A DNA stretch of 64,000 bases from Pseudomonas oleovorans subsp. oleovorans. GTDB lineage: Bacteria; Pseudomonadota; Gammaproteobacteria; Pseudomonadales; Pseudomonadaceae. Position 1 is the first letter of the stretch. Every line of letters starts with the position of its first letter. Below, one piece after another: positions 23,105-62,657 of the stretch. Location: positions 1-64,000 of the forward strand of contig NZ_NIUB01000002.1 of NCBI RefSeq assembly GCF_002197815.1, written 5' to 3'. A model generated the notes under the pieces. The model saw only the letters and a list, made by a program, of their open reading frames with translations. It was not told the DNA's origin and ran no database searches. Made by a program: the position numbers and the translations under genes.

Positions 23105-23127
23105 GCTTCTAGGGCCCGTAACCACTA

Positions 23128-23813
23128 GAGGCTGTTGCCGTTTTTCTCTAACCAGTTGATATATAAGAGAAAACTCGCATCGTTGAAGCTCTAGTCCAAC
23201 ATCGATACGAGTTTACAATGCCCCGATTATTGCTCAGTGATGAGCATTGGTCGAAGCTGCGGGAAATTCTGCTGCGCAAGGCCATCTACCACAAGCGTGA
23301 TCTACGAATGACCGTGGAGGGCATGCTGTAGCATGTGCACGGGATGCCCCTGGAGAGATCTACCCGAAGCGTTCGGGAACTGGAATAAGGTCTATAAACG
23401 CTTCAATGCGTGGTTCGCAACTGGAAAAACGATGAGGCCATAGGAAAAAGTCGAGCTGACAATACCAGCAAGATTCACCTGGCAGTTGATGCTCATGGAC
23501 TACCCATCGAGTTTGAAATTACGGGGGGCAAATCAATGATTGCACCCAGGCTCCCGCATTGATTGCCAAGCTCCCGGAGGCAGAAACCATTGTCGCGGAC
23601 AAGGGCTATGACAGCGAGAGAGTTCGGCAGCAGGTTGAGCAACAAGGGGCCAAGGCCGTGATCCCGAGAAAGCGTAACTCCGTGAAAGGCAATGCGGATC
23701 TGGACAGAGGTCTTTACCGCAACCGGCACTTGGTGGAGAACGCCTTCGCCCGGCTAAAGCACTACCGGGCAGTGGCATCTCGGCTCGACAAACTCAAGAG
23801 AAATTACGAAAGC
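23128..23813 (+). mobile_element. decayed IS5-family insertion sequence
   Basis: The left end GAGGCTGTTGCCGTTT is preceded by TA at 23126-23127 and followed by a transposase relic. The right end is missing: sequence switches to a group II intron at about 23814-23818, a short distance before the expected transposase stop. The remaining element is about 690 bp, well short of a normal 0.8-0.9 kb copy, because of an internal deletion and right-end loss. Confidence 0.7.
23218..23813 (+). pseudogene. IS5-family transposase remnant
   Basis: The relic begins MPRLLLSDEHWSKLREILL, then hits a stop at 23329 where the family continues. Pieces of the transposase appear in shifting frames: CPWRDLPEAFGNWNKVYKRF-like sequence near 23345-23410, then a deletion, then NTSKIHLAVDAHGLPIEFEI near 23462. 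After another frame change come IAKLPEAETIVADKGYDSER and GLYRNRHLVENAFARLKHYR up to KLKRNYES at 23813. The DDE domain's first acidic region is lost in the deletion. It is not functional. Confidence 0.85.
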
Positions 23814-23857
23814 AACGGTCGCGGTAGGGACGGCAGTTACCTGCCGCCCCCCGCACA

Positions 23858-23890
23858 GATCCGTACGTGCGGAACTACCGCATACGGCTC
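23858..23890 (-). ncRNA. group II intron domain V
   Basis: On the minus strand the 33 bases begin GAGCCGTATGCGGTAG and end CCGCACGTACGGATC, a hairpin with the AGC catalytic triad and internal bulge of domain V. A GC-rich domain VI-like hairpin follows at 23818-23857. This motif is the strongest evidence for the intron. Confidence 0.8.
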
Positions 23891-23895
23891 CTGCC

Positions 23896-60154: not shown

Positions 60155-60257
60155 CTTGAAAATCCTCTCGGTAGGTCTTCAACCAAATCAAATCTTTGAG
60201 TGGCAAAAAGGGGGCCTAGCACTAATGCCAGTCAGTTAAGCCGTTGCACTCGATCTT

Positions 60258-60319
60258 TGTAGGAGCCGGCTTGCCGGCGATCCGCCATAAAAAGCATCGC
60301 CAGCAAGCTGGCTCCTACG
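60258..60319. repeat. REP-like palindrome between rpsB and tsf
   Basis: TGTAGGAGCCGGCTTGCCGG and, inverted, CAAGCTGGCTCCTACG lie in the rpsB-tsf gap. The same TGTAGGAGC core occurs at 36110. Being inside a likely operon, it could affect mRNA stability or the ratio of the two products. Confidence 0.8.
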
Positions 60320-60433
60320 AAAAGCGCCCCCTCTACTGCAAGTAGGAGGGAGTGGTGACGAACTTATCTGATCAGCATTAGGCCTAGCCCCCTTCTTGCA
60401 CAGCGCATAACGCTAAATGCTTGGCGTTAACGC

Positions 60434-61174
60434 TTAGCCTTCGGCGCTCTCGGCAGCAGCTTCTTCGACGAACTCTTCAGTCGCGCCGCCAGCGTTGCTG
60501 CGACCACGGATCACAGCGTCGGCCATGGCACCCATGTACAGCTGGATGGCGCGGATGGCGTCGTCGTTACCCGGGATGATGTAGTCAACGCCTTCCGGGC
60601 TGCTGTTGGTATCGACAACGCCGATAACCGGGATGCCCAGCTTGTTGGCTTCGGTGATAGCAATGCGCTCGTGGTCAACGTCGATCACGAACAGAGCGTC
60701 CGGCAGACCGCCCATGTCCTTGATACCACCCAGGCTGCGATCCAGCTTTTCCAGATCCCGGGTACGCATCAGGGCTTCTTTCTTGGTCAGCTTGGCGAAG
60801 GTGCCGTCCTGGGACTGGGCTTCCAGCTCGCGCAGGCGCTTGATCGAAGCACGGATGGTCTTGTAGTTGGTCAGCATGCCGCCCAACCAGCGGTGGTCGA
60901 CGAACGGCGAGCCGCAACGAGTGGCTTCTTCGCGAACGATTTTGCCTGCGGAACGCTTGGTGCCAACGAACAGAATCTTGTTCTTGCCAGCAGCCAGCTT
61001 CTCAACGAACGACAGGGCGTCGTTGAACATCGGCAGGGTTTTCTCGAGGTTGATGATGTGAATCTTATTGCGCGCGCCGAAAATGTACTTGCCCATTTTC
61101 GGGTTCCAGTAACGGGTCTGGTGGCCGAAGTGCACACCGGCCTTCAGCATATCGCGCATAGTGACTTGGGACAT
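60434..61174 (-). CDS. rpsB: 30S ribosomal protein S2
   Basis: A 246-residue small-subunit protein. [20 protein letters not shown] begins the family, followed by [52 protein letters not shown] and [20 protein letters not shown]. The C-terminal tail is acidic and alanine-rich ([14 protein letters not shown]). The start at 61174 removes a 24-residue unrelated extension. It is divergent from map, with a 700-bp gap that contains a MITE-like element, one palindrome and no credible gene. Confidence 0.98.
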
Positions 61175-61375
61175 GATAGTTCCTTGATAAGTCGGGTTAG
61201 GCCTCCACGCATCCCAGTTTCCAACCCTCGAACTTGTCGAAGGCACCCAGGAAACCGTGTCGATACGTGTGTGGGTTTAGGCTTTCGGGCGCAGTGCCCG
61301 TAAAGCGGCGCGTTTTATACCACAGAAAGCAGCGACAAGCTACAAGGCAAACGCCGTAAACAGGGGCGAAGCCTA

Positions 61376-61568
61376 GGGTCTGTTGCCGTTTCGCGCACGG
61401 CCGCGACGGAGCCAGTTTTTGCGTGGGACCAGGCGCGAGACGCGAAGTTTGGTCGCCCAAATGAGCCGTCGAGTAACGACGTACCACGCAAAAACTGGCC
61501 CGTCCCTTCGGGTTGCGTGGCGCAATTTGGCGCAGCAACGCGGCTCGCGTCGAAACGGCAACAGACCC
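61376..61568. mobile_element. 193-bp MITE-like palindromic element
   Basis: The element starts GGGTCTGTTGCCGTTTCG and ends with its exact complement, so the terminal inverted repeats are at least 18 bases. TA flanks both ends (61374-61375 and 61569-61570). Inner segments also pair (GCCAGTTTTTGCGTGG with its inverted copy), so it can fold almost end to end. It has no transposase gene. Its ends resemble the IS5-family left end at 23128 (GAGGCTGTTGCCGTTT), which is likewise preceded by TA. Confidence 0.8.
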
Positions 61569-61599
61569 TAATGCCGATCAGATAAGGTTTTTTGCTCTT

Positions 61600-61670
61600 G
61601 CAGGGTGGGCTTCAGCCCACCAACGGCGGCCGGCGTGGGCTGAAACGGAGCGCCGCCCGACCCACCCTAC
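61600..61670. repeat. palindromic repeat with GGGTGGGCTTCAGCCCACC core
   Basis: CAGGGTGGGCTTCAGCCCAC is faced by GTGGGCTGAAACGGAGCGCC and then CGACCCACCCTA, giving nested inverted repeats in the rpsB-map gap. It looks like a further class of short Pseudomonas intergenic palindrome. Confidence 0.65.
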
Positions 61671-61874
61671 AAATCGAACCGACTGGCAACAGTTAAATTC
61701 CTTCCTATACGATTGCAGCGCCCGTAAACCAAGTGTCTAGGCGCTTAACTGACTGACATTAGGGCAAAGCCCGCTCATTAACACATGCGACTCGATGCTT
61801 GCAGCTGCCTTTGGGGCTTGCACCACGTAGCTGCTAATATATGCCCCTTTTCTGCGTACACTCGAGAGCCCGAT

Positions 61875-62657
61875 ATGACCGTCACCATCAAATCCGCCGA
61901 AGAAATCGAGAAAATGCGCGTGGCTGGCCGCCTGGCCGCCGAAGTGCTGGAGATGATCGGCGAGCACGTCAAGCCGGGCGTCACCACCGAAGAGCTGGAT
62001 CGCATCTGCCATGACTACATCGTCAACGTGCAGCAGGCCATCCCCGCCCCGCTCAACTACAAGGGCTTTCCCAAGTCGATCTGCACCTCGGTCAACCATG
62101 TGGTGTGCCACGGCATCCCCAGCGACAAGCCACTGAAAGACGGCGACGTGCTGAACATCGACGTCACCGTGATCAAGGACGGTTACCACGGCGATACCAG
62201 CAAGATGTTCATGGTCGGCAAGGTTGCCGAATGGGCTGAGCGCCTGGCCAAGGTCACCCAGGAGTGCATGTATAAAGGCATCGAACTGGTCAAGCCGGGC
62301 ACCCGCCTGGGCGACATCGGCGAAGTGATCCAGAAGCATGCGGAGAAGAACGGCTTCTCCGTGGTTCGCGAGTACTGTGGGCACGGCATCGGCGCCGTGT
62401 TCCATGAAGAGCCGCAGGTGCTGCACTACGGCAAGGCCGGCACCGGCATGGAGCTCAAGGAAGGCATGACCTTCACCATCGAGCCGATGATCAACCAGGG
62501 CCGCCCGGAAACCCGCCTGCTCGGCGACGGCTGGACCGCCATCACCAAGGACCGCAAGCTTTCCGCGCAATGGGAGCACACTGTGCTGGTCACCGCAGAC
62601 GGCTATGAGATCCTGACCCTGCGCAGCGACGACACCCTGCCGCGCACCTCGGCCTGA
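61875..62657 (+). CDS. map: methionine aminopeptidase type I
   Basis: A 260-residue enzyme removing the first methionine from new proteins. The two-metal site is seen in NIDVTVIKDGYHGDTSKMF (two Asp), GHGIGAVFHEEPQVLHYG (His), MTFTIEPMINQG (Glu) and QWEHTVLVTADGYEILTL (Glu), with the substrate histidine in CTSVNHVVCHGIP. The start at 61875 matches the family. It is upstream of glnD. Confidence 0.97.
   Translation: MTVTIKSAEEIEKMRVAGRLAAEVLEMIGEHVKPGVTTEELDRICHDYIVNVQQAIPAPLNYKGFPKSICTSVNHVVCHGIPSDKPLKDGDVLNIDVTVIKDGYHGDTSKMFMVGKVAEWAERLAKVTQECMYKGIELVKPGTRLGDIGEVIQKHAEKNGFSVVREYCGHGIGAVFHEEPQVLHYGKAGTGMELKEGMTFTIEPMINQGRPETRLLGDGWTAITKDRKLSAQWEHTVLVTADGYEILTLRSDDTLPRTSA

Follow-up and report, generated by a model that had tools for sequence, protein, structure and literature searches.

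The element located between rpsB and map in the window (the whole stretch of 64,000 nucleotides of Pseudomonas oleovorans DNA analysed here) is almost certainly a type II MITE of an ISPa67-like IS5-family element, inserted at TA within the sequence YTAR. The original prediction of a 193-bp MITE-like element with perfect 18-base terminal repeats was borne out, the repeats matching at 18 of 18 bp, as was its placement between the two genes, the starts of which flank the element. Beyond that prediction, the analysis revealed a series of sizes descending to 53 bp, a preference for CTAG, nesting of the window copy in a second MITE, and a genome in which no intact copy of the transposase was seen.

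Structure of the window element

Coordinates of the features are collected in Table 1. The element proper spans 193 bp with a TA dinucleotide on either side (197 bp with both TAs), and with the TAs counted the perfect inverted repeat TAGGGTCTGTTGCCGTTTCG extends to 20 of 20 bp (61374-61393 and 61551-61570). A search for this 20-mer with up to three mismatches located two places in the window, both of them the element's own ends, and none in 100 dinucleotide shuffles. A looser count, of complementary 18-mer pairs less than 400 bp apart, returned seven in the window, three of which derive from the MITE repeat, against none in nine and two in one of ten plain shuffles. The longest stop-free stretches, of 65 codons, correspond to the element's own length, and a transposase gene is absent. 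The RNA fold of the element is highly stable (-124 kcal/mol; z -9.65 versus shuffles), a property that 20-bp perfect ends confer by themselves, whatever use the element may have. Small size without a transposase gene, terminal inverted repeats, a TA duplication with empty sites, dispersed copies and an autonomous partner with the same ends place the element among the bacterial type II MITEs, the empty site for the window copy being provided solely by an uninterrupted copy of the second MITE on contig C48.

Table 1. Positions in the window of the MITE, its surroundings and the related IS5-family remnant
Feature	Position	Strand	Evidence or remark
Type II MITE, internally deleted form	61376..61568		Repeat search, copy comparison, deletion fit
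Left terminal inverted repeat GGGTCTGTTGCCGTTTCG	61376..61393	+	Identical to the first 18 bp, on the left, of the intact IS of relative G012
Right terminal inverted repeat	61551..61568	-	Perfect complement of the left repeat
Left TA of target duplication	61374..61375		Comparison of 28 copies and empty-site alignments
Right TA of duplication, also outermost TA of second MITE	61569..61570
Internal hairpin	61411..61499		19-bp arms (61411-61429 and 61481-61499), 95% complementary
Junction of 72-bp internal deletion relative to 269-bp form	61515..61517		3-bp GCG microhomology
Second MITE, IS4-like ends TAATGCCGATCAGATAAGG ... GACTGACATTA	61569..61761		Aligned to copies at C48:20866 and C10:32688
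Left target duplication of second MITE, GGGCGAAGCC	61364..61373		9 of 10 letters as in the right copy
Right target duplication of second MITE, GGGCAAAGCC	61762..61771
t44 RNA, leader upstream of rpsB, uninterrupted	61196..61291	-	75.6 bits (gathering 44)
Decayed copy of the IS5-family element presumed to mobilise the MITE; no right end was found	23126..23813	+

Copies in the genome and the target site

The genome (4.85 Mb in 109 contigs) contains 57 BLAST matches to the window element, and the 18-base end occurs with up to three mismatches at 75 places, against four for a reversed control. Pairing of the ends yielded 28 copies, a count that leaves out a diverged 283-bp copy on C8, a copy at C18:81060 for which no second end was found, and unpaired ends, some of which belong to IS copies. 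With both TAs included, 17 copies are short (eight of 53 bp, seven of 54 bp and two of 60 bp) and nine are long (two of 268 bp and seven of 269 bp); between them come a single 155-bp copy and the 197-bp window copy. The TA is preceded by C in 25 of the 28 and followed by G in 24, compared with a background in the window of 31 CTAG among 1235 TA sites. A four-base CTAG duplication was considered and rejected: targets reading TTAG or CTAA have TA alone in common on both sides, which makes TA the duplication and YTAR, mostly CTAG, the preferred site.

The copies lie mostly outside long reading frames. By a crude reading-frame rule applied to 24 of the 28 copies (the window copy and three at short loci were set aside), 3 fall inside frames of at least 200 amino acids, compared with 13 of the 31 CTAG sites and 245 of 300 random window positions; for frames of at least 100 amino acids the respective values are 13 of 24, 19 of 31 and 281 of 300. 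Much of the MITE's avoidance of genes therefore follows from its CTAG target.

Empty sites in relatives

Queries were made by joining the 72-base flanks of 25 copies with a single TA retained, and five relatives were searched. In G099, 15 of the 25 queried sites were tested by alignment (among the matches listed), with occupied sizes in the present genome of 53, 54, 60, 155, 268 and 269 bp; 14 of these 15 junctions are free of indels, 12 of them with TA in place. Four sites tested in G012 were likewise free of an indel, one of them with TA at the junction. The absence of TA at 2 of the 14 sites in G099 and 3 of the 4 in G012 weighs against the reading. In G291, probably Pseudomonas indoloxydans JCM 14246 to judge by the number (11) and sequences of its exact short copies, the site of the 155-bp copy is empty, with 142 of 144 letters matching. 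The block 6 site is not clean in G099 or G291, and block 0 in G291 resembles a paralogous repeat. The rpsB-map gap in G012 and G099 is too diverged to provide a base-exact empty site for the window copy.

The IS5-family partner

The original prediction had also likened the ends to those of an IS5 remnant at 23128. The remnant is real, with two differences in 18 bases between its left end (23126-23143) and the MITE end; over positions 23132-23813 it aligns in two segments (92% and 97%) with an intact IS5-family element. A match to a group II intron (23818-23892, minus strand; RF00029, 41.1 bits, gathering 40) begins where the right end of the remnant is lost. An intact element, found in G012, measures 855 bp between TAs, has the ends GGGTCTGTTGCCGTTTCG and GGGTCTGTTGCCGTTTCAC, and holds a single open frame for a transposase of 249 amino acids, assigned to the IS5 family by NF033580 (283.8 bits, cut-off 110), PF13340 (80.7, cut-off 34.3) and PF01609 (78.6, cut-off 23). 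Its size and target would place it, tentatively, in subgroup IS427. The best plasmid record, annotated ISPa67 (LC735983.1), is 89% identical to it over the full length. IS and MITE have 17-21 bp in common at the ends and nothing else significant.

On a plasmid of Azotobacter chroococcum NCIMB 8003 the IS and the MITE both have GTTGACGTTT in place of GTTGCCGTTT, a shared variant which, in this one lineage, fits a partnership between transposase and ends. Against it, MITEs with the GTTGACG end variant are present also on a P. aeruginosa and a Halomonas plasmid, records that contain no such IS. The proposal that the element is non-autonomous and depends on the IS type of the remnant for its movement is supported by the copies, the empty sites, the intact G012 IS with the same 18-bp end and the Azotobacter end variant.

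No whole copy of the partner IS type was seen in the present genome, the copies being truncated, frameshifted or interrupted by stops (two were read in detail), so that present mobility there is putative. A programmed frameshift at a G-run in the transposase gene was rejected as an explanation: the intact G012 copy is open in a single frame and lacks any G-run, and the G-runs in the copies of this genome therefore look like decay. A 141-amino-acid transposase query returned 17 matches in the genome, including a distant IS5 relative on C33 (35%, open frame of 223 amino acids) that could be an alternative mobiliser. Among the 19 genomes searched, matches to the IS at E 1e-20 or better were obtained in this genome, G291 and G012. 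G001 contains 28 matches to the MITE, yet no IS match at that threshold, and the same applies to G099, in which the MITE is present as a full-length copy and two of 54 bp, one exact and the other imperfect; for these two genomes one must therefore assume a different mobiliser, insertions of old date or disappearance of the IS. The right flank of a 54-bp copy in G099 (L157) is a dispersed repeat with many matches in this genome, G291, G012 and G008.

Short palindromes lying mostly outside long reading frames would also suit a repeat of the REP/REPIN type, moved by a RAYT tyrosine transposase. REP/REPIN elements are, however, distinguished by the lack of a target duplication and by a GTAG-type tag, whereas the present element has perfect terminal repeats, ends identical to those of an IS5 element, a tip that reads TAGGG, and a TA duplication with restored empty sites. 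This reading was rejected, and its probability is negligible.

Shortened copies and the 53-60 bp forms

Every shorter copy fits a single internal deletion of the 265-bp consensus (the 269-bp form with TAs) with 0-3 mismatches, the window copy having two outside its GCG junction. The 155-bp copy has a CCGT junction. A 4-bp CGGC junction accounts for six copies of 54 bp, with the seventh, on C48, one base away; a 4-bp CGCG junction for three copies of 53 bp, with variants on C10 and at C1:55485; a 2-bp CG junction, one base off the CGCG class, for three further copies of 53 bp; and a 5-bp GCGCA junction for both copies of 60 bp.

Two accounts of the shortest forms were weighed. In the first, units of 49-50 bp (measured between the cuts, with 13-14 bp separating the 18-bp ends) are themselves mobilised by an IS5-family DDE transposase, a reading that we hold at slightly better than even chances. 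In the second, the copies of 53-60 bp are immobile, being footprints of 269-bp copies that lost their middle in place at short repeats near the base of the hairpin, much as transposons undergo nearly precise excision; this is plausible but somewhat improbable. Shrinkage in place was observed once: a 269-bp copy on C46 has a counterpart of 100 bp at the same site in G291, a near-identical strain, and the two have in common two variants found in none of the eight remaining full copies. The GCCT variant of the 269-bp copy on C70 recurs in the 54-bp copy at C6:130741, and microhomology of 2-5 bp is present at most junctions, both of which are consistent with loss in place. Against it, 17 of the 19 shortened copies measure 53-60 bp, even though just 3 of the 108 possible junctions (at least 4 bp of homology with both ends left whole, which excludes the natural 60-bp junction, as that one begins a base within the end) would leave a copy of at most 65 bp. 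Three copies, moreover, fit a junction with just 2 bp of homology, albeit one that may be a point variant of the CGCG class. Lastly, 12 of the 13 occupied G291 sites compared are equal in size to those of the present genome, 8 of them at 53-54 bp, and 10 of the 11 P. indoloxydans short copies lie at sites in common with this genome, all 10 of equal size; equality of size at common sites shows stability, not movement.

The excess of 53-60 bp copies over the expectation from junctions favours spread of the short forms by transposition, and a deletion hotspot driven by the hairpin could be an alternative cause of that excess. If mobile, the units of 49-50 bp would to our knowledge be among the smallest natural DNA transposons in bacteria. 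DNA of this length bends with difficulty, and mobile ends would therefore have to pair between two copies, or as an extruded hairpin.

The rpsB-map locus and the second MITE

The rpsB start codon lies at 61172-61174 on the minus strand and the start of map at 61875 on the plus strand, leaving a gap of 700 bp compared with 263-450 bp in 13 of 24 relatives, i.e. those in which both starts were found by script. The window MITE sits upstream of the t44 leader of rpsB and occupies, as the 197-bp element, the terminal TA of the second MITE, with GGGCGAAGCC and GGGCAAAGCC bracketing the pair. The left end of the second MITE occurs at 53 places in the genome with up to three mismatches, against none for the reversed control; its ends are IS4-like, and a duplication of 10-11 bp would agree with a putative IS4-type MITE. 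The copy of the second MITE at C48:20866 is uninterrupted at the point of insertion in the window, with the 11-bp repeat GCCAGATGGGC on both sides, and the copy at C10:32688 has a 53-bp element in the same terminal TA, with the 11-bp repeat GGCGTGATGCC on both sides. From these alignments we infer that two copies of the second MITE were hit independently at one and the same position.

Retention of the element as a regulatory or insulating hairpin between the two genes was also considered. The very stable fold, the location between divergent genes and the presence in G291 of the whole window composite (741 bp at 100% identity, rounded) are in keeping with such a role, but G291 is too close to reveal selection, and the 13 relatives measured have shorter gaps, with neither MITE in the gap of the four relatives that were aligned or of G099, where the gap has diverged. 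The gap in G012 contains GGCAAAGCC once and neither MITE. A simple scan of 61150-61900 found no promoter, including inside the element, a result of little weight because the scan missed the promoters of the rpsB and map genes also. No evidence for regulation by the element was seen at this locus, and we regard such a role as very unlikely.

Other repeats were noticed in the window and elsewhere in the genome. A further IS4-like MITE, judged by eye, lies at 60223-60380, past the 3' end of rpsB, between GGCCTAGCAC and GGCCTAGCCC and apparently inside the loop of a GGGGGCCTAG/CTAGCCCCC hairpin. The IS4-like end TAATGCTGATCAGATAAGT has 25 exact copies in the genome, those at C26:64372, 64540 and 64707 being in tandem at a spacing of 167-168 bp. 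Inside the second MITE, 61602-61672 is a dispersed repeat of approximately 70 bases (GGGTGGGCTTCAGCCCACC type) with many matches in G008, G012, G099 and G291.

Distribution beyond this genome

The window copy was matched in 14 of 57 sampled genomes, this one included, all of the same genus. Short palindromes with exact ends were found in 7 of 398 genomes of the genus, again including this one. A named collection contained 20 stretches with such palindromes, of 49 to 62 bp and with many differing cores: 11 in P. indoloxydans, 2 in Stutzerimonas nitrititolerans, and one each in P. ceruminis, P. tumuqii, P. profundi, P. cuatrocienegasensis, Pseudomonas sp. MMS21 TM103 and two metagenome assemblies. 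The P. ceruminis copy lies at a site in common with this genome, with 10 of 60 flank bases different. Full-length relatives of 73-77% identity are carried on four plasmid records (two from Azotobacter, one from Halomonas and one from P. aeruginosa), and phage carriage was rejected, a 269-bp copy having no match among 50,697 phage records. In five genomes (G005 and G021, loci L108 and L109, and G016, G019 and G029) the inner part of the MITE alone matches, at about positions 27-145 or less; these matches are perhaps to a related element with different ends.

Comparison with known elements

MITEPsy1 of Pseudomonas syringae pv. phaseolicola is the nearest known parallel: its mobilisation was demonstrated with an entrapment plasmid, and its presumed mover is the IS5-family element ISPsy2 (PMC3189936). 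As described there, MITEPsy1 is similarly an IS5-type MITE with 18-nt terminal repeats and a CTAG target (CTAG or YTAA), and homologous stretches of 52 nt and 99 nt exist in strain DC3000 and in P. stutzeri, respectively (PMC3189936). It differs in having the ends GGAAGGTCTGAAAAAGCC, a length of 100 nt and a reported 4-nt duplication (PMC3189936), whereas the present family has a TA duplication and ranges from 53 to 269 bp. The ISPa67-like IS (LC735983.1) has ends GGGTCTGTTGCCATTTCG and GGGTCTGTTGCCGTTTTA with flanks CTA and TAG, as in the MITE, but is autonomous, with a transposase gene of 750 bases, and only its ends are common to the two. Size variants are also described for the MITE families Chunjie of Geobacter, the ends of which are conserved, and QMITE2 of Coxiella, although the sizes differ: Chunjie measures 178-235 bp, and QMITE2 at full length about 190 bp (PMC10969869). 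The string GGGTCTGTTGCCGTTT was not found in open-licence literature text, exclusive of sequences inside figures.

Proposed mechanism and significance

The element is almost certainly a non-coding unit reduced to the ends that an ISPa67-like IS presents to its DDE transposase, the enzyme presumably binding the 18-20 bp ends and acting in trans. Insertion is at TA inside YTAR, mostly CTAG, with duplication of the TA, and the copies and empty sites show both preference and duplication. Errors at short direct repeats, perhaps aided by the hairpin, would then delete the middle and leave both ends, a step caught in place in one case and deduced from the junctions in the others. The window copy is such a deletion form; it is lodged between rpsB and map, where it occupies the terminal TA of an IS4-like MITE.

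The findings tie a MITE family to a named IS type, with one step of shrinkage in place, and account for short palindromes at CTAG in the annotation of these genomes. With natural elements of 49-62 bp present in several Pseudomonadaceae, the lower size limit of a DDE transposase substrate in the cell becomes testable.
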